Below, in pieces: positions 15,835-24,350 of a stretch of DNA of 32,876 nt. A program made the translations under genes and the position numbers. This DNA is from Gammaproteobacteria bacterium. Its GTDB lineage: Bacteria > Pseudomonadota > Gammaproteobacteria > Steroidobacterales > JABDMI01. The stretch covers positions 1 through 32,876 of the forward strand of contig JABDMI010000087.1 in NCBI GenBank assembly GCA_013001575.1, given 5' to 3'. Every line of letters begins with the position of its first letter. Within the stretch, counting starts at the first letter, position 1. Below the pieces are notes generated by a model. That model was not told the DNA's origin. It saw only the letters and a list, made by a program, of their open reading frames with translations, and made no database searches.

Positions 15835-16875
15835 ATGGCCGTTGATATTGCACAGTTGCTCTCATTCAGTGTTAAAAATAATGCGTCTGACCTGCACTTA
15901 TCAGGGGGTTTACCTCCGATGATCCGGGTAGATGGTGACGTTAAACGTCTGAATATGGATGCTATGGCGCACAAAGATGTGCACACCATGATCTATGACA
16001 TTATGAATGACAAGCAACGTAAGGATTATGAAGAATTCCTGGAAACAGATTTCTCTTTCGAAATTCCGAATTTGGCGCGTTTCAGGGTTAATGCATTTAA
16101 CCAGGGTCGTGGTGCGGCCGCCGTGTTTCGTACCATTCCATCGGAAGTGCTGACCCTTGAGGATATTGCTGCACCTGCCTCGTTTATGGACATTTCTGAC
16201 CAACCGCGCGGAATTTGTCTGGTCACCGGTCCGACCGGTTCGGGAAAATCAACCACGCTTGCGGCCATGATCAACTACATCAATGAGACCAAGCCGCATC
16301 ACATTTTAACCATTGAAGATCCGATCGAATTTGTACACCAAAGTAAAAAATCTCTGATCAACCAGCGTGAAGTCCATCGCGATACTCTGGGCTTTAATGA
16401 AGCACTGCGTTCTGCCTTGCGTGAAGATCCTGATGTGATCCTGGTTGGCGAGATGCGTGACCTTGAGACCATTCGCCTGGCGCTAACCGCTGCAGAAACC
16501 GGTCACCTGGTGTTCGGAACCCTGCACACCAGTTCGGCCGCCAAAACCATTGACCGTATTGTTGACGTGTTCCCGGCAGCGGAAAAAGAAATGGTGCGTG
16601 CGATGTTGTCTGAATCTCTACGCGCGGTTATTTCACAAACGCTATTGAAAAAAATAGGTGGTGGGCGAATTGCAGCTCACGAAATTATGATCGGTACGCC
16701 GGCGATTCGAAACCTGATCCGTGAAGGCAAGATCGCGCAAATGTATTCAGCCATCCAGACGGGACAGGCGGAAGGCATGCAAACCCTTGATCAATGTTTG
16801 CAAGACTTGGTGAAACGCGGTCAGATCTCACGTCAGGACGCGCGTTATCGTGCTTCCCAGAAAGAGTTGTTTTAA
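15835..16875 (+). CDS. pilT: Type IV pilus retraction ATPase PilT
   Basis: The 346-residue cytoplasmic motor depolymerises the pilus and drives twitching. Seen are Walker A GPTGSGKST (132-140), the Asp box ILTIEDPIEF, Walker B VILVGEMRD with catalytic Glu206, the His box ETGHLVFGTLHT (about 221-232) and the PilT signature AIRNLIREGK (290-299), which marks it as true PilT rather than PilU. AAGGAT precedes the ATG. It is followed by pilU after 58 bases. The divergent yggS partner is the standard gammaproteobacterial layout. Confidence 0.97.
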   Translation: MAVDIAQLLSFSVKNNASDLHLSGGLPPMIRVDGDVKRLNMDAMAHKDVHTMIYDIMNDKQRKDYEEFLETDFSFEIPNLARFRVNAFNQGRGAAAVFRTIPSEVLTLEDIAAPASFMDISDQPRGICLVTGPTGSGKSTTLAAMINYINETKPHHILTIEDPIEFVHQSKKSLINQREVHRDTLGFNEALRSALREDPDVILVGEMRDLETIRLALTAAETGHLVFGTLHTSSAAKTIDRIVDVFPAAEKEMVRAMLSESLRAVISQTLLKKIGGGRIAAHEIMIGTPAIRNLIREGKIAQMYSAIQTGQAEGMQTLDQCLQDLVKRGQISRQDARYRASQKELF

Positions 16876-16933
16876 GTTTTAGTTACCGATTCACAAAAGA
16901 ATAATGCCAAGAAACACACTTTAAGGGAAAACA

Positions 16934-18094
16934 ATGGAAAGAGATCAAGCGATTAAATTCATGCAGGATCTATTGCGCGCCATGGTTGCAAAGGGCGGCT
17001 CGGATCTATTCATTACAGCCGGATTTCCGCCGGCGATCAAAGTTGATGGTGCGGTAAAACCGGTTTCGGATAAGCCCCTGACCCCTTTGCAAAGTAGTGT
17101 GATCGTTCGATCGATAATGAATGACAAACAAACCAAATCTTTTGATGCCACCAAAGAATGTAACTTTGCCATCAGTCCGCGCGGTATCGGACGTTTTCGT
17201 GTTAATGCGTTTGTACAGCAAACCCATGTTGGTGCAGTCTTAAGAACCATTACCACCGACATTCCTGAATTCGATAAACTCGGTTTGCCGCCGGTCTTGA
17301 AAGATGTGGTGCTGCAAAAACGCGGTCTGGTCATCGTGGTCGGGGCAACCGGCTCGGGTAAGTCTACCTCCCTGGCCGCGATGCTTGATCATCGCAACAA
17401 AAACTCCAATGGACACATCATTACCATCGAAGACCCGATTGAATTTGTGCATCGTCATCAAAAATGTGTGATCACACAACGTGAGGTCGGGGTAGATACC
17501 GATTCCTGGGAAGTGGCGCTGATGAATACCTTGCGTCAGGCGCCCGACGTTATTCTGATGGGCGAGATCCGCAGTCGCGAAACCATGGAATACGCGGTGC
17601 AGTTTGCTGAAACCGGTCATTTATGTCTGGCCACCTTGCACGCCAATAACTCCAACCAGGCGCTCGATCGTATTATCAACTTTTTCCCGGAAGAGCGCCG
17701 CGATCAGTTATTGATGGATCTTTCTTTGAACCTGAAAGGCTTGATCTCGCAACGACTGATTCCCCGCTCATCGGGCAAAGGCCGGGTTGCGGCTATGGAG
17801 ATCCTGTTACATTCACCCCTGGTTGCAGATCTGATCTTTAAAGGTGAAGTAAACCTGCTGAAAGACACCATGGCAAAATCCACACGTATGGGCATGTGTA
17901 CGTTTGACCAGGCCTTATTCAATCATTATGAAGATGGTACTATCAGTTATGAAGATGCCTTGCGTAATGCCGATTCACGTAATGAATTGCGTTTGCGCGT
18001 TAAACTCGACAGTAAGCGCAATGAAAAGATCGATGAATCCTCGACTTCTCTGGAAATTCTTGAAGAAGATGATACCGACGGCTTTCATCGTTAA
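16934..18094 (+). CDS. pilU: Type IV pilus retraction ATPase PilU
   Basis: The 386-residue paralogue of PilT has Walker A GATGSGKST (137-145), Walker B VILMGEIR (Glu211), the Asp box IITIEDPIEF and the His box ETGHLCLATLHA. It lacks AIRNLIREGK and carries a longer acidic C-terminal tail (about 355-386, SSTSLEILEEDDTDGFHR), as expected for PilU, which assists PilT in forceful retraction. AAGGGA precedes the ATG. It is 58 bases after pilT and 84 bases before a second PilU-like gene. Confidence 0.93.
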   Translation: MERDQAIKFMQDLLRAMVAKGGSDLFITAGFPPAIKVDGAVKPVSDKPLTPLQSSVIVRSIMNDKQTKSFDATKECNFAISPRGIGRFRVNAFVQQTHVGAVLRTITTDIPEFDKLGLPPVLKDVVLQKRGLVIVVGATGSGKSTSLAAMLDHRNKNSNGHIITIEDPIEFVHRHQKCVITQREVGVDTDSWEVALMNTLRQAPDVILMGEIRSRETMEYAVQFAETGHLCLATLHANNSNQALDRIINFFPEERRDQLLMDLSLNLKGLISQRLIPRSSGKGRVAAMEILLHSPLVADLIFKGEVNLLKDTMAKSTRMGMCTFDQALFNHYEDGTISYEDALRNADSRNELRLRVKLDSKRNEKIDESSTSLEILEEDDTDGFHR

Positions 18095-18139
18095 GCCAGT
18101 AGGCCTTACACAATTTAAAAACAATTAAATAATATTAAA

Positions 18140-18151
18140 AAAGTTACAAAA
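18140..18151 (+). repeat. Short copy of the pilT-upstream repeat
   Basis: AAAGTTACAAAA, identical over 12 bases to the second pilT-upstream copy, lies in the 84-base gap before the third retraction-ATPase gene. The gap is very AT-rich, so chance is possible. Confidence 0.25.
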
Positions 18152-18178
18152 TAAACTGATCTCTGGAAGCTTGTTGTT

Positions 18179-19234
18179 ATGAATATCAAACCCCTGTTAA
18201 AAATTATGGCCGAGAAAAGAGCCTCGGATCTTTTCTTGAGTCCGTTCTCGCCGATCAAGATCAAGATCGACGGTGTGATCCGTGCTGTGAACAATACCAT
18301 TCTGGATGTGGCGTCTGTCAAAGCGGCGGCCATGTCGATCATGACCCAGTCAGAAAAAGAGCAATTGATCGAGAACCTGGAAGTGGATTTCGCCATCTCG
18401 GAATCGGGTTTGGGACGTTTTCGGGTCAATGTCTTCCATCAGCGCAGCAGTATTGCGATGGTTTTACGCTTTATTTCACCTGAAACCCCACGCCTGGAAG
18501 ATCTGGATCTGCCAGACAAGATTCCGGAATTGATCATGGGTAAAAGGGGATTGGTGTTGATGGTTGGCGCGACCGGTTCGGGCAAATCAACCACGCTTGC
18601 AGCAATGCTTGATCATCGCAATGAAAACTCTTCCAGCCACATTTTAACTGTTGAAGATCCGATTGAATTTTTGCACAAAAGTAAAAAGTCTATAGTCAAT
18701 CAACGCGAACTGGGTACCGACACCCACAGCTATCACAATGCACTGCGCAGTGCCGTGCGAGAAGCGCCGGATGTGATTTTGATTGGCGAGATCCGAGACG
18801 GTGAAACCATGGAAACGGCATTAACCCTGGCAGGTACCGGGCATTTAACGGTTGCAACCTTGCACGCCAATAATGCTGCAGAAACCCTGGACAGGATTAT
18901 TAATATGTTTCCGCAAGAGCGCCATCACCAGATCCTGACTGATATGTCACAGTATTTAAACGCCATCATTTCACAACGCCTTGTGATCATGAAAAATGGT
19001 AAACGCTGTGCGGCGGTAGAGGTCATGATGAATACCCCGCACATTCGTGAGCTGATCCTGAAAAATGATATTAGTAGTGTGAAAGAAGCTTTGAACGCAA
19101 CTACCGAAGGCGGCATGCAGAGTTTTGATTCTGCATTGTACGAGTTATACGCCTCTGGCAAAGTATCTTTGGAAGAAGCTCTGTTGAATGCGGATTCCAA
19201 AGCCGACCTGGAAGCCAGAATCAATTTTGGTTGA
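18179..19234 (+). CDS. Third PilT/PilU-type retraction ATPase
   Basis: The 351-residue protein is a complete ATPase with Walker A GATGSGKST (130-138), the Asp box ILTVEDPIEF, Walker B VILIGEIRD (Glu204) and the His box GTGHLTVATLHANN. It is closer to the neighbouring PilU than to PilT: both have KRGLV, LAAMLDHRN, ATLHANN and FP-x-ERR/H segments, and this one lacks AIRNLIREGK. It also lacks the acidic PilU tail. A duplication of pilU with divergence is the simplest reading. The ribosome binding site is weak (TGGAAG). It may act as an accessory retraction motor. Confidence 0.88.
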   Translation: MNIKPLLKIMAEKRASDLFLSPFSPIKIKIDGVIRAVNNTILDVASVKAAAMSIMTQSEKEQLIENLEVDFAISESGLGRFRVNVFHQRSSIAMVLRFISPETPRLEDLDLPDKIPELIMGKRGLVLMVGATGSGKSTTLAAMLDHRNENSSSHILTVEDPIEFLHKSKKSIVNQRELGTDTHSYHNALRSAVREAPDVILIGEIRDGETMETALTLAGTGHLTVATLHANNAAETLDRIINMFPQERHHQILTDMSQYLNAIISQRLVIMKNGKRCAAVEVMMNTPHIRELILKNDISSVKEALNATTEGGMQSFDSALYELYASGKVSLEEALLNADSKADLEARINFG

Positions 19235-19285: not shown

Positions 19286-20182
19286 TTAGCCAGGATAGAC
19301 TTGCGCGGCCTCGAATACCGGGCCATCCACACAGACGCGTTGCATTTCTAAACCGTTCGGAGTTTGCACCGGAACGGTACACCCGGCGCATCCACCCACC
19401 GCACAGGCCATAAACTCTTCCAGCGAAACCTGGCAGTCAAGACTGTATTTACGCGCTAGCGCGGCCACGGCTTTTAACATTGGTGTAGGCCCGCAGGCAA
19501 AGATCTCGATCTCATCGAGTTCGGCTTGCGACAAAGTCTGTAAATGTGCATCGGCAAGATCGGTCACAAAGCCCTTGAAACTGGCTGCATAGCCTTGCCA
19601 GGAAGCAAGACGGCTTGGAATGTTCCAGCTTTCCAGCAGCGGGTGTGAGCCATTGATGGCCTCATCTATGCCTTGTACTGCTATCGACGATTTGCTCACA
19701 GCGAAGGGAAACGGAATCTCGGAACCCATGATGCAAAAAGTTTTCCAGTCGGCGTCTGGGTTAGCCTTGATGCTTTCGGCTAGAAATATCATTGGCGGAA
19801 TTCCTACGCCGCCGCCGATCAATAAAGGGCGGGGTTTATTCGCATGTAAAGTGAAGCCTTTGCCAATCGGTCCCAACACACTGATGTTGTCACCTGCTGC
19901 ACGCGAACTTAAGTGATGCAGGCCGTGACCATGAATTTTGTATAAAAAATCCACCCAGCCTTGTTCAGGTGAAGCGCGCATGATGGACAAGGGCCGACGC
20001 ATGGGTACAGCCGGGTCACAGGTAAGATGCGCAAAACTTCCTGCCTTGGCGCGTTTGGCAGTTTCAGGAGCATACACGCGCAGTATGTATTGCTCGCCAG
20101 GCCAGGACTCTTGCTCAATAACCGTTGCCGATTCGAGAAAGATCTGTCCGCGATGTGATGTGTCAGTCGTTGTTGTGTTCAT
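19286..20182 (-). CDS. pyrK: PyrK-like dihydroorotate dehydrogenase electron-transfer flavoprotein
   Basis: The 298-residue protein has a ferredoxin-reductase architecture. The FAD-binding RRPLSI lies at 62-67, the NAD-binding GGGVGIPPMIFLAE at mid-length, ACGPTPML follows, and a C-terminal [2Fe-2S] cluster uses Cys260, 265, 268 and 284 (spacing x4, x2, x15). The closing CVDGPVF is a PyrK hallmark. PyrK passes electrons from dihydroorotate dehydrogenase type 1B to NAD in pyrimidine synthesis. The catalytic partner PyrD1B is not in this window. It starts three bases after the pyrB stop with no separate ribosome binding site, so its translation is probably coupled to pyrB. An unrelated reductase role cannot be excluded. 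Confidence 0.82.
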   Translation of the reverse strand: MNTTTTDTSHRGQIFLESATVIEQESWPGEQYILRVYAPETAKRAKAGSFAHLTCDPAVPMRRPLSIMRASPEQGWVDFLYKIHGHGLHHLSSRAAGDNISVLGPIGKGFTLHANKPRPLLIGGGVGIPPMIFLAESIKANPDADWKTFCIMGSEIPFPFAVSKSSIAVQGIDEAINGSHPLLESWNIPSRLASWQGYAASFKGFVTDLADAHLQTLSQAELDEIEIFACGPTPMLKAVAALARKYSLDCQVSLEEFMACAVGGCAGCTVPVQTPNGLEMQRVCVDGPVFEAAQVYPG

Positions 20183-20185
20183 AAA

Positions 20186-21106
20186 TTATTGTTTATTGAG
20201 TAAGAGATCGAACAGAGCCATTCGGATGAAAAGCCCGTTGTTAACTTGTGCCGAAATCAAGGAGCGTTGGCTGTCAGCCAGTTCGCTACTGATCTCAACG
20301 CCGCGATTCATTGGACCCGGGTGCATAACCAGTGCTTGTGGACAGGTTTTTTCCAATCGCTGACTATTAATGCCGTAACGCTGGTGATAACTGTCGTTGT
20401 CTGGAATCTCGCCATCCAGCATGCGTTCTTTTTGTATGCGTAGCGCCATCACGATATCGGCATTTTCCAGTGCGGTATCCAGATCAGTGCCCTGTTTAGA
20501 TGTTGTGAATTCAGAGGCTTCCGGCAACAGATGTTGCGGTGCCACTAAACTGATGTTTGTGATCCCCAGCGCATTCAAACACTGACAGGTGGAACGCGCC
20601 ACTCGCGAGTGTTTGATGTCACCCACTATAACGATCTTGGCAGACTCGAGATCGGAGTGATGCTGGAGCATGGTGTAAACGTCGAGTAAGCCCTGGGTAG
20701 GATGATTCAGTGTGCCGCCACCACCATTAATGATATGCGTATTCGGATGCAGCCGGCTCATCTGAATCGCCAGTTCATTGCAAATTTTTTCATCTTTGCT
20801 GCGAATCACAAAGATCTCGGCGCCCACCGCTTGCAGTGTGATCAGCGTATCGAGATAGGTTTCGCCCTTGACCCGCGATGATTGATGTTCATTCATGGTC
20901 AGCACGTGCATGCCCAGCTGTTTGGCGGCTGACTCAAAGGAAAGCCGGGTACGTGTACTCGGTTCAAAAAACAAATTGGCCAGAATGCGATGTTGTAAAC
21001 GCGTGTTCAGCTCTGTCGCCGACATGGCTTTCAATTCATCGGCTTTAGAAAATATTGCTCGTATGTTTTCTGCGCTCAGGTCGGCAATGCTTGAAAGATG
21101 GTGCAT
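20186..21106 (-). CDS. pyrB: Aspartate carbamoyltransferase catalytic subunit
   Basis: The 306-residue enzyme joins carbamoyl phosphate to aspartate, the first committed step of pyrimidine synthesis. Seen are the carbamoyl-phosphate loop FFEPSTRTRLSFESA (47-61), SSRVKGE with Lys80, NHPTQGLLD (HPTQ at 135-138) and MHPGPMNRG near the C terminus. Length is normal for a catalytic chain. No pyrI or pyrC is adjacent. The ribosome binding site is weak. It follows ruvX after 47 bases and leads into the PyrK-like gene. Confidence 0.96.
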   Translation of the reverse strand: MHHLSSIADLSAENIRAIFSKADELKAMSATELNTRLQHRILANLFFEPSTRTRLSFESAAKQLGMHVLTMNEHQSSRVKGETYLDTLITLQAVGAEIFVIRSKDEKICNELAIQMSRLHPNTHIINGGGGTLNHPTQGLLDVYTMLQHHSDLESAKIVIVGDIKHSRVARSTCQCLNALGITNISLVAPQHLLPEASEFTTSKQGTDLDTALENADIVMALRIQKERMLDGEIPDNDSYHQRYGINSQRLEKTCPQALVMHPGPMNRGVEISSELADSQRSLISAQVNNGLFIRMALFDLLLNKQ

Positions 21107-21153: not shown

Positions 21154-21600
21154 TTAAGTGTAATTCTCGTCCATCCAGCGTTGTAGCATTACTGCAGCCG
21201 CGGCTTTATCAATGTCGGTTTTTTTGACACGTCTATTCCGTTTGCCAGTTTGGCGCAATTCTTTTATTTGCTTGCCGGCTTCCCTGGAGCTGTAACTTTC
21301 ATCGATAAATTCTATTGGCATATCAATTCGGTCACTGAGTAAAGCTGCGTAACGTCGAATGGATTTACCCATCCCGGATTCGCTGCCATCCGCATTATAC
21401 GGCATACCCATGATCAACTTATGGGGTTGCCATTCTTTGATCAAATCGAGCAATGCATTGCTGATGGTGAATGGGTCACTGATTATAACGGTGGTCAGCG
21501 CCTGAGCATTGCGGGTAATCGGGTTTCCCACCGCCACACCAATACGCCGCTGGCCATAGTCCAGCGCCATAATTGATTGATTGATTTTTGGGGCAGACAT
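21154..21600 (-). CDS. ruvX: Holliday junction resolvase-like RuvX (YqgF)
   Basis: The start chosen is ATG 21600, which gives MSAPKINQSIMALDYGQRRI (148 residues) and resembles the short N terminus of E. coli YqgF. In-frame starts at 21618 (ATG) and 21633 (GTG) overlap the yqgE end. The RNase H-like core shows MALDYGQRRIGVAVG, LIMGMPYNADGSES and the acidic ends IDESYSS and DKAAAAVML. YqgF takes part in 16S rRNA 5' maturation and possibly junction resolution. It is 10 bases downstream of yqgE in the same operon, a conserved pairing. Confidence 0.92.
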   Translation of the reverse strand: MSAPKINQSIMALDYGQRRIGVAVGNPITRNAQALTTVIISDPFTISNALLDLIKEWQPHKLIMGMPYNADGSESGMGKSIRRYAALLSDRIDMPIEFIDESYSSREAGKQIKELRQTGKRNRRVKKTDIDKAAAAVMLQRWMDENYT

Positions 21601-21610
21601 GCCAGATGAA

Positions 21611-22207
21611 TCAGGCATGTCCAACGTCACCACTCAGATTGTGCAAGTCGATCCCTATGGATTGTGCTGCAGCCTCCCAGCGTTGAGCATATGGGATCTC
21701 GAATAGAATACGGGTATCGCAGGGGGCGGTTAACCAGGCATTGGCGAGTAGCTCTTCTTCCAGTTGACCGGCTTCCCAGCCTGAATACCCCAGGGCGAAG
21801 GCTTTTTGGCTTGGGCCACTGCCATTAGCAATGGCGAGCATGATATCTTTGGAAGTGGTGACCCGGATCTGCTCGGACACATCCAGGGATGATGCCCATC
21901 TACCATGCTCGCTATTCAGGTCACTATCAATGCGATGCAAAACAAAGCCACGGTCGCTGGCAACAGGTCCGCCGATCAGGACCGGTTCATTGCCTTCATT
22001 GCCCTGGTATTCCAGATCCAGTTGTTGCAACACTTCACCAACACTAATGGCAATAGGGCGATTGATCACAATGCCCAAGGCACCATCCGCATTATGCTCG
22101 CAGATCAGGGTCACGGTTTTTTCGAAAACAGGATCGTGCATTTGCGGCATTGCAATAAGTAACTGGTTGTTGAGATAGCCTTCTTGCATGACTCCATTAT
22201 CGGTCAT
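21611..22207 (-). CDS. yqgE: YqgE/AlgH family protein
   Basis: The start chosen is ATG 22207, giving 198 residues; ATG 22189 (MQEGYLNNQLLIAMPQM) is an alternative with GGAG too close to be useful. Conserved parts are YLNNQLLIAMPQMHDPVFEK, GALGIVINRP, VLIGGPVASDRGFVLHR and ALGYSGWEAGQLEEEL, a full-length UPF0301 domain. The function is unknown; in Pseudomonas the gene is algH and sits between ruvX and tonB3, as here. Confidence 0.94.
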   Translation of the reverse strand: MTDNGVMQEGYLNNQLLIAMPQMHDPVFEKTVTLICEHNADGALGIVINRPIAISVGEVLQQLDLEYQGNEGNEPVLIGGPVASDRGFVLHRIDSDLNSEHGRWASSLDVSEQIRVTTSKDIMLAIANGSGPSQKAFALGYSGWEAGQLEEELLANAWLTAPCDTRILFEIPYAQRWEAAAQSIGIDLHNLSGDVGHA

Positions 22208-22269
22208 CACAGCTCGAAAAAGTAAGTTTTTGTCCCGCTTTAAAGTGATAAAACACAAGAATTCTGAGT

Positions 22270-23148
22270 CTAATTAGAATCACCTTTAAAGGCACGACCT
22301 TTAACCACGCCAACTTCGGTGAATTGCCATTCGTACACAAAGGTCAGCGCGTTATTACCAACCGCCAGTTCTTCGGGGAAAGGGTCAAAAGGCGCTGCAA
22401 GGCGCAAGATTCGCAAGGCGGCCTGATCAGTAGAGCCTGATCCGGATGTGCGTAAAATTGCCGCTTTGCGGATTGAGCCATCGCGACCGATCGAGACCTC
22501 GATGACGGGTGAACGTTGTCGGTTTTTTTCCAGCAGATCTTTAGGGTAATTCAAGGTGCCAATGCGTTCCACTTTCTGTCGCCAGGCGCTGATGTAATTT
22601 GCCACATTGCTTTCTTTGGCATTGATCGACACCACCAGCTCGTTATCTTCGCTTGCAGTTATGAGATTTTTGACATCGGTCTTTTCTTGCGGAGCCAGTA
22701 CCTGTTCACCACTGGTCATGAGGCGTGCCTTTAAGCGGTAATCCGAAATAGCAATATCGGGCTTCACTTGTATAAGCACACTCGGGCGATCGGATTTCCG
22801 TGCAGCCAGATATTGGCGCATCGCTTCGTCAGTAATAACTTCACGTTCTTGTAGCGCCTGGCCGTCGGGATTGCCTGGATTATCAAACGGATCACCTTGC
22901 GTAGGGTCACTGGAGGCACGTACCTGATCTGCGGTGTTGCCGGAGCCCAGTTGATTCGACTGGGCGTAATATTTTGCATTTTCCGGTTCCAGGTCGTCAC
23001 TGTGACCCTGTATCAGTACCACTTCGAGTTGATCGCTGCCACTGTGGATCAATGCTTCTGATTCAAAGGTAATGCCCAAGATCACGATTCCATGCAAAAT
23101 AATCGCAACAAAAAAAGCCGTCATCAGTCGATCATTATCATTAAGCAT
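22270..23148 (-). CDS. tonB: TonB-type energy transducer (TonB3-like)
   Basis: The 292-residue protein has one N-terminal membrane helix (about 9-27, MTAFFVAIILHGIVILGITF), a periplasmic spacer and a C-terminal TonB domain. That domain shows VIEVSIGRDGSIRKAAILRT, SGSGSTDQAALRILRLAAPF and DPFPEEL ... FVYEWQF. The spacer is Asp/Asn/Gln-rich rather than the classical Pro-rich rod. Its place between yqgE and gshB matches P. aeruginosa tonB3, which is needed for twitching motility. No exbB or exbD is present here, so any motor partner must be encoded elsewhere. Confidence 0.9.
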   Translation of the reverse strand: MLNDNDRLMTAFFVAIILHGIVILGITFESEALIHSGSDQLEVVLIQGHSDDLEPENAKYYAQSNQLGSGNTADQVRASSDPTQGDPFDNPGNPDGQALQEREVITDEAMRQYLAARKSDRPSVLIQVKPDIAISDYRLKARLMTSGEQVLAPQEKTDVKNLITASEDNELVVSINAKESNVANYISAWRQKVERIGTLNYPKDLLEKNRQRSPVIEVSIGRDGSIRKAAILRTSGSGSTDQAALRILRLAAPFDPFPEELAVGNNALTFVYEWQFTEVGVVKGRAFKGDSN

Positions 23149-23213: not shown

Positions 23214-24350
23214 TCAGTATGTCGAATTTAGTTGCGCGATCACTTCAACTTTATAATCCGGGTCTTGCCAGGAGGTTAGATCATTCATTGAGTTTGTTAT
23301 TTGTGCCTTTTTATTCGGGAACAATACTAAAACATTTTCAACTTTCATTTGTTTGGCTATGTTTTGCCAGTCTTCACCGGCCACATGCAATGCGGTTGCT
23401 GCAGCATCGGCCAATATCGGGTCCGAGTGAATGACGGTTACGCTGCGAATTGCTGTATTCGGGTAGCCGCTGCGTGGATCAAGTATGTGGTGCGAACGTT
23501 TGCCTTTATATTCAAACTGGCGTTCGTAGTCACCCGACGTGAATACTGCCGTCGCTGATGATTCTCTTTTATCAAGCGTGAATATGGCCGGGGCATCAAA
23601 GCCTTTGCTGTGGATATCGGGGTTTTTTAATCCCACTTTCCAGGGCGAGCCATCAGGCTTATGACCAAGCGCGATGAGATCACCCCCAAAACCGATGAGT
23701 GCGTTGTTAATGCCATGCTCGTATAGCATTTCGAACGCTTGTTGCGCCGCCCAGCCCTTTGCGACACCGCCAAGATCCACTTTTAATGGACGTTTGGCGC
23801 AAATTTTCCGGTCGTGCAATTCAATGTCTTGCATATTGCCATATCGAGCCATGAGAGATTCAATTTCTTCATCCGTTGGCGGAACCGAACGCATTTCCTC
23901 GGATTTATGAAAACCCCATAGTTCCACAAGAGGCATGATTGCCGGGTCGAATAAACCGGAACTATGCGCATGCAAGTCTTTCAGTTTTTGAAAAAAAACC
24001 ATGCTGTCATCATCAACGGGCAGACCACATTGGGCGTTTTCCAAAAACCGGTTTTGAACCGTTAGCCAGCCATCACCCCAGGCATAGAGGTCTTTGGTTT
24101 GTTTTTTGCTGAGTTGATCAAACTGCTTAATGAATTCATCCGCCTGATGTTTGCTGGAATAGATTTGTAGCTGTACATAGGTGCCGAGGGTATAGCGCTG
24201 GAATTTATGGGGGCTTTCTTCTGAAGCGCACCCCGAAAACAGTGCAATACTCATGGCTATTACACAGCAGAATAACTTATACACCTTGCGGTTAATTGTA
24301 TCGATGGGCAAATCCGTTCTATGTGATCTGCTTGAGCAAGGCATTGACAT
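23214..24350 (-). CDS. apbE: ApbE-type FAD:protein FMN transferase, lipoprotein
   Basis: The 378-residue product opens with a lipoprotein signal whose lipobox is FSGC (Cys about 41). The catalytic domain shows YTLGTYVQLQIY, VDLGGVAKGWAAQQAFEML, GFGGDLIALG and a Thr-Ser-Gly-Asp-Tyr segment before HHILDPRSGYP. ApbE attaches FMN to threonine in target flavoproteins outside the cytoplasm. The ATG at 24350 overlaps the gshB end by 32 bases; a GTG at 24284 would give a more typical short signal peptide, so the start is uncertain. Position between gshB and tonB is unusual for this operon. Confidence 0.88.
   Translation of the reverse strand: MSMPCSSRSHRTDLPIDTINRKVYKLFCCVIAMSIALFSGCASEESPHKFQRYTLGTYVQLQIYSSKHQADEFIKQFDQLSKKQTKDLYAWGDGWLTVQNRFLENAQCGLPVDDDSMVFFQKLKDLHAHSSGLFDPAIMPLVELWGFHKSEEMRSVPPTDEEIESLMARYGNMQDIELHDRKICAKRPLKVDLGGVAKGWAAQQAFEMLYEHGINNALIGFGGDLIALGHKPDGSPWKVGLKNPDIHSKGFDAPAIFTLDKRESSATAVFTSGDYERQFEYKGKRSHHILDPRSGYPNTAIRSVTVIHSDPILADAAATALHVAGEDWQNIAKQMKVENVLVLFPNKKAQITNSMNDLTSWQDPDYKVEVIAQLNSTY

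Follow-up and report, generated by a model that had tools for sequence, protein, structure and literature searches.

A PyrK-like protein encoded beside pyrB in a gammaproteobacterium: sequence comparisons point to a class 1B dihydroorotate dehydrogenase

The dihydroorotate dehydrogenase usually attributed to Gram-negative bacteria is quinone-linked. This class 2 PyrD acts on dihydroorotate and carries out the same reaction as the class 1B enzyme. The window, a stretch of 32,876 nucleotides from a gammaproteobacterium, encodes next to pyrB a protein resembling PyrK, the electron-transfer subunit (FAD, [2Fe-2S], NAD-binding) of class 1B dihydroorotate dehydrogenase. This raises the question whether the lineage uses an NAD-linked enzyme or whether PyrK serves a different partner, the two options left by an earlier note on this DNA.

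The pyrK reading frame occupies exactly positions 19286 to 20182 of the minus strand, with an ATG start and 298 amino acids to the stop. Its ATG is separated by three bases from the stop of pyrB (20186..21106, minus strand), which encodes the catalytic subunit of aspartate carbamoyltransferase (NF002032, 344.3 bits, cut-off 263). An FNR-like FAD/NAD-binding module is followed by a C-terminal DHODB [2Fe-2S] domain; Pfam DHODB_Fe-S_bind (PF10418) scores 53.9 bits (cut-off 23.9), and PF00175 stays just short of its cut-off (21.6 bits vs 22). The [2Fe-2S] motif C-x4-C-x2-C-x15-C (codons Cys260 to Cys284, 19331..19405, minus strand) aligns with MACGIGACYAC..VC of Lactococcus lactis PyrK, GGGVGIPP (residues 123-130, 19793..19816, minus strand) with GGGIGVPP, and RRPLS (residues 62-66, 19985..19999, minus strand), which we take to be the flavin-binding motif, with RRPIS. 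For the PyrK alignment 134 loci were read, of which 130 gave at least 270 residues, and 119 sequences were left after identical ones had been dropped. Cysteines 260, 265, 268 and 284 are identical in all 119 intact sequences, and likewise invariant are R62-R63-P64, S66, G123-G124-G125-V126-G127, P129-P130, V283-C284, D286-G287-P288 and F290; V285 and V289 of the CVDGPVF ending are kept in 118. Reading frame, profiles and alignment thus confirm what the earlier note had described, a PyrK with four cluster cysteines, FAD motif and CVDGPVF ending three bases from pyrB.

Among solved chains the best sequence matches are L. lactis PyrK (1ep3_B, E 1.2e-19) and 5ksw_B (E 1.4e-19), followed by NfnA-type chains (E 8.7e-19 and 1.6e-15). 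Judged from the E value to 1ep3_B and from the 183 order genomes (196 searched) with a match at E < 1e-30, the likeness to PyrK is not due to chance. The NCBIfam PyrK cut-offs are not reached: the best model, NF000799, gives 127.9 bits against a cut-off of 314, NF000796 to NF000798 likewise stay below theirs, and the same was found for three out of three further subfamily members (four out of four with the window protein). Because NF000799 matched seven of 14 control genomes and exceeded its cut-off in only one, these equivalog cut-offs are narrow, and to exceed them is a matter of annotation and not of biochemistry. The low score therefore marks a divergent PyrK subfamily, which is easily under-annotated since its members score under the cut-offs. 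For the gammaproteobacterial subfamily this amounts to an annotation gap.

The earlier note had placed the partner PyrD1B outside the window, and it was indeed found on another contig of the same genome (2.25 Mb in 132 contigs, 96.1% complete, 0.19% contamination), beside trmL. This is the one DHO_dh family match in the whole genome, and it belongs to class 1B, with 367.9 bits for NF005574 (cut-off 269) and 334.7 for TIGR01037 (cut-off 270); the class 2 model TIGR01036 gives 78.0 vs a cut-off of 200. The nearest solved chains are class 1B (1ep1_A, 5ue9_A and 5ksw_A, E 4e-82 to 2e-80), the best class 1A chain has an E value of 3.1e-23, and the alignment to 1ep1_A extends over 300 residues, NISCPN included. 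A profile search of the genome returned no PyrD2 over the class 2 cut-off, and a second, class 2 PyrD was rejected on this ground. The quinone-linked class 2 PyrD of the E. coli type, for which an excerpt of PMC8097209 gives the same dihydroorotate reaction, was thus not found over cut-off in this genome. The search for pyrD of type 1B versus type 2 that the earlier note had proposed thus yielded type 1B, with type 2 under the cut-off, and supports the option of an NAD-linked enzyme. It is very probable that the window PyrK is a subunit of a conventional NAD-linked class 1B dihydroorotate dehydrogenase heterotetramer whose genes lie apart. This reading draws on family, motifs, predicted fold, the presence of PyrD1B with no PyrD2 over cut-off, and co-occurrence, all of them established at the level of sequence. 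Against it count the lack of linkage between pyrK and pyrD and the PyrK scores under the NCBIfam cut-offs.

An AlphaFold2 model of the window PyrK (50 sequences) has a pLDDT of 90.8 and a pTM of 0.89, with residues 261-264 of the cluster loop under pLDDT 50. Its top structural matches are 5ksw_B (Z 28.7, 253 residues, 2.5 A) and 1ep1_B (Z 28.0), spanning 251-253 residues. The window protein thus resembles L. lactis PyrK (1ep1/1ep2/1ep3) and the related chain 5ksw_B in its predicted fold (Z 28-29), and shares with them the four cluster cysteines, RRPxS, GGGxGxPP and CxDGPVF; like L. lactis PyrK, it also has a class 1B PyrD in the same genome. However, identity over the structural alignment is 24-26%, the window PyrK has 298 residues and that of L. 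lactis 262, the sequence alignment with L. lactis PyrK does not extend over the central part of its NAD domain (about 140-200), and pyrK adjoins pyrB and not pyrD, unlike in L. lactis.

It is highly unlikely that PyrK serves another enzyme, of the NfnA/SudB, AsrB or hydrogenase gamma type, while PyrD1B works with something else. NfnA/SudB, the small subunit of NADH-dependent ferredoxin:NADP oxidoreductase (4ylf_A, 5jca_S), has the same FNR-plus-[2Fe-2S] architecture, and NfnI 5jca_S ties with the PyrK chains (Z 27.9), so that the nearly equal scores of the predicted fold cannot separate PyrK from NfnA. Such an alternative would also fit a pyrK that does not adjoin pyrD, and two genomes listed as 100% complete (G243 and G365) have PyrD1B and no PyrK match, from which it follows that PyrD1B can exist without PyrK. 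However, the first cluster ligand position holds Cys260, as in PyrK, where 4ylf_A and 5jca_S have Asp (MVDGTGMC); for Nfn, an excerpt of PMC8097209 mentions Asp(Cys)3 ligation. Moreover, GGGVGIPP corresponds to the GGGIGVPP of PyrK, and these two NfnA chains lack the PP after GGGVG. On these two features an NfnA/SudB identity was rejected; NF004862, the NfnA/SudB model used for comparison, gives 107.6 bits (cut-off 220). The neighbours of pyrK are pyrB and a PilT/PilU-family ATPase gene, with no adjoining gene for an NfnB/GltD-like subunit. The window protein is the sole match to PF10418, the PyrK Fe-S domain, in the genome, and the option of a different partner receives no support.

The distribution of PyrK across genomes likewise argues against another enzyme, as PyrK tracks PyrD1B and avoids PyrD2 in a survey of 204 genomes spread over the class (at least 90% completeness; strong PyrK defined as E < 1e-60). 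PyrK was found in 91 genomes at E <= 1e-30, 87 with a strong match (E < 1e-60) and four with a weak one of about 1e-40; PyrD1B was found in 92 and PyrD2 in 89. Strong PyrK and PyrD1B occur together in 86 genomes, strong PyrK alone in one (G336), PyrD1B alone in six and neither in 111. None of the 204 genomes combines PyrD2 with strong PyrK and none combines it with PyrD1B; 23 have neither PyrD class over cut-off. All four weak matches sit in PyrD2 genomes, and if these matches, which lack the Fe-S domain, are counted as PyrK, then PyrK and PyrD2 co-occur in four genomes of the class. The exclusion spans many families of the class; the Fisher values treat related genomes as independent and are no proof. 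The sampled class splits about evenly between PyrD1B and PyrD2, without overlap, and the statement of the earlier note that Gammaproteobacteria generally use type 2 therefore fails as a generality and holds for under half of the sample. In the phylum survey, 66 of 199 genomes had a PyrK match at E <= 1e-30; the 65 besides the window's own all belong to other classes (34-48% identity), many of them to one family (f185).

Within the order (196 genomes, strong PyrK defined as E < 1e-30) PyrK was found in 185 genomes at E <= 1e-3 and in the 183 given above at E < 1e-30, PyrD1B over cut-off in 173 and PyrD2 over cut-off in nine. Both PyrK and PyrD1B are present in 169 genomes, PyrK only in 14, PyrD1B only in four and neither in nine; at the stricter limit of E < 1e-60 two genomes (G042, G158) would lose their strong-PyrK status. 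The pairing of PyrK with PyrD1B is thus ordinary for the clade. The exclusion of PyrD2 against PyrD1B and strong PyrK, which holds in the 204 class genomes, is broken in three of these 196 (G037, G096, G160), where PyrK, PyrD1B and PyrD2 occur together; the remaining six of the nine genomes with PyrD2 lack PyrD1B as well as strong PyrK. The 14 of 183 PyrK genomes without PyrD1B over cut-off count against the pairing. Two of them contain weaker PyrD1B matches (G113, E 7.0e-67; G168, E 3.4e-49), which are perhaps truncated genes, and G137 (listed as 99% complete) and G157 (96%) have PyrK and neither PyrD class over cut-off. PyrD1B without strong PyrK was seen in four genomes listed as 73-88% complete (G028, G135, G161, G170). 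Six more of the 14 are small genomes (1.3-1.6 Mb) of family f14 (G027, G039, G080, G086, G092, G097), again with PyrK and neither PyrD class over cut-off, owing either to assembly gaps or to something else.

It is extremely unlikely that the contig with PyrD1B is a contaminant and that the organism itself relies on a class 2 PyrD missing from the assembly. The contig has only 4787 bases in an assembly of 132 contigs, but its order trmL-pyrD-[602 aa ORF] returns in two genomes of the same genus, both without PyrD2 over cut-off: as trmL-pyrD-[592 aa ORF] in G014 (PyrD 85% identical), and in G028 (87%) as pyrD-[590 aa ORF] with an incomplete trmL where the contig ends. Because of this common order the small contig can be assigned to the organism, and contamination was rejected. 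In addition, 187 of the 196 order genomes have no PyrD2 over cut-off. In a wider set, trmL lies in the same fetched stretch as pyrD in 52 of 61 loci, some of which repeat a genome.

On the minus strand of the window the gene order is gshB, apbE, a TonB-domain gene, yqgE, ruvX, pyrB and pyrK. Profiles and related loci identify the TonB C-terminal-domain protein (22270..23148), yqgE/algH (21611..22258) and ruvX (yqgF, 21154..21633), all on the minus strand, as recurrent upstream neighbours, and a PilT/PilU-family ATPase gene convergent with pyrK (18179..19234, plus strand) as the recurrent downstream one. The latter is the last of three consecutive PilT/PilU-family ATPase genes (15835-19234), a set which recurs in many relatives. 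The apbE gene (FAD:protein FMN transferase family, 23214-24350) lies between gshB and the TonB-domain gene; an ApbE match upstream of TonB is seen in some related loci only (L047, L063, L065, L097, L124), and many loci end there.

In the related loci, whose named sources include Woeseiaceae, Steroidobacteraceae and Povalibacter uvarum (Steroidobacterales), pyrB lies on the same strand as pyrK in 77 of 80 fetched stretches; the gap between the matched parts is at most 200 bases in 61, and the other 16 have a dihydroorotase-family gene in between. Among 29 loci of the class survey (two from the window's order) a PyrC gene is found upstream on the same strand in 23, PyrB within 250 bases in four and a convergent downstream Pil ATPase gene in 21. 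Nine loci of other classes, mostly from family f185, show pyrB-pyrC-pyrK in five cases and neither gene in four. Linkage of pyrK to pyrB or pyrC' thus recurs throughout the class and also outside it, in another class. The PyrC of one locus (L105) exceeds the NCBIfam dihydroorotase cut-offs (NF005791, 538.9; TIGR00857, 314.9). Active dihydroorotases carry an HxH motif. In L072 and L105, which were read from end to end, DLAARLRQPG or DLCARFREPG stands in its place; their PyrC is therefore probably an inactive PyrC', which we liken to the one known from Pseudomonas aspartate carbamoyltransferase. In both loci a PyrR-like protein, judged from its ORF, precedes pyrB. The order pyrB-pyrC'-pyrK seems to be the older one, which would explain why pyrK stays beside pyrB, and the arrangement in the window is best read as this order after loss of pyrC'. 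A missing dihydroorotase was considered and rejected, as a dimeric PyrC is encoded elsewhere in the genome (TIGR00856, 458.7 bits); TIGR00857 has no match over cut-off in it.

Four PyrD2 genomes from two families (G259 and G374; G213 and G344) keep PyrK relatives of 232-250 residues (L203:3433-4185 and L205:3248-3946, minus strand; L204:3199-3930 and L206:3478-4209, plus strand). These proteins no longer have RRPxS or the cysteine domain, which is missing altogether, and much of GGGxGIPP is lost as well; their genes stand in the order pyrR-pyrB-pyrC'-X or beside a pilU-like gene (neighbours judged from ORFs). In two pairs their dN/dS is 0.178 and 0.184, compared with 0.025-0.129 for five neighbouring genes, the dS of about 1 in the first pair making its value rough. 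In these genomes, which have no PyrD1B, the cofactor sites have thus decayed while the reading frame is still under some constraint, a pattern that speaks for the pairing of PyrK with PyrD1B; a pseudoenzyme with a new role is possible. That the window PyrK itself is a functionless relic in a lineage that switched enzymes is scarcely credible in spite of such degenerate relatives, as its cofactor motifs are intact, PyrD1B is present and no PyrD2 exceeds the cut-off.

The six class genomes with PyrD1B and without strong PyrK are G206, G229, G237, G243, G253 and G365. NF000799 gave no match in G229, G237, G243 and G365, but did so with 57.5 bits in G206 and with 24 bits in G253. PyrD1B loci of five near-complete genomes (L208 from G243, L209 from G365, L210 from G229, L212 from G237, L213 from G206) were compared at 120 near-invariant PyrD positions, i.e. 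those at least 98% invariant elsewhere. Between 7 and 33 of these are changed in the five proteins and at most 6 in leave-one-out controls (n=51), or 3 after removal of one doubtful control (L229 from G028, 73% complete, PyrK not found), without which the counts for the five stay the same. Six PyrD loci were left out: L185, L211 and L167 as repeats of G365 or G253 or for unclear PyrK status, L214 (G170) since PyrK was not found, and L230 and L231 as extra loci fetched for synteny. In G243 and G365 the SGCVGFGEEYTR stretch is largely rewritten. A tie between the changed residues and the absence of PyrK is suggestive only, because these PyrD1Bs as a whole have diverged further (45-60% identity to the PyrD of the window's genome), which confounds the comparison.

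If the PyrD1B-PyrK reading is right, PyrD1B, encoded beside trmL on the other contig, would oxidise dihydroorotate to orotate on its FMN, and the electrons would cross the [2Fe-2S] cluster held by Cys260, Cys265, Cys268 and Cys284 of PyrK to the FAD of PyrK and on to NAD+. Complex, electron path and acceptor are predictions modelled on the (PyrD)2(PyrK)2 heterotetramer of L. lactis, where PyrK with its FAD and one [2Fe-2S] relays the electrons of the FMN subunit to NAD+ and the two subunits seem to stabilise each other (excerpt of PMC8097209). Pyrimidine synthesis would then be tied to the NAD pool, with no direct link to quinones. Tentatively, and with slightly more doubt than confidence, we suggest that PyrD1B-PyrK, as pyrB-pyrC'-pyrK plus trmL-pyrD, is ancestral in Gammaproteobacteria and in one or more further classes of the phylum, and that the familiar lineages later exchanged it for the quinone-linked PyrD2. 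In some of these lineages PyrK would survive cofactor-less beside pyrB-pyrC' in a new, perhaps structural, role.

No report of a native PyrK in Gammaproteobacteria was found in titles and abstract openings of the open-licence literature, although one may be published. The acceptor of dihydroorotate oxidation decides whether pyrimidine synthesis depends on respiration, and for this link P. putida has been engineered with L. lactis pyrK-pyrD (excerpt of PMC6805499). As type 1B is about as common as type 2 in the sampled gammaproteobacterial genomes, accounts of enzyme distribution and metabolic models which assume PyrD2 would have to be corrected for these lineages. Since PyrK and the PyrD classes follow a nearly exclusive pattern, nature also provides an experiment on the purpose for which PyrK needs PyrD1B.
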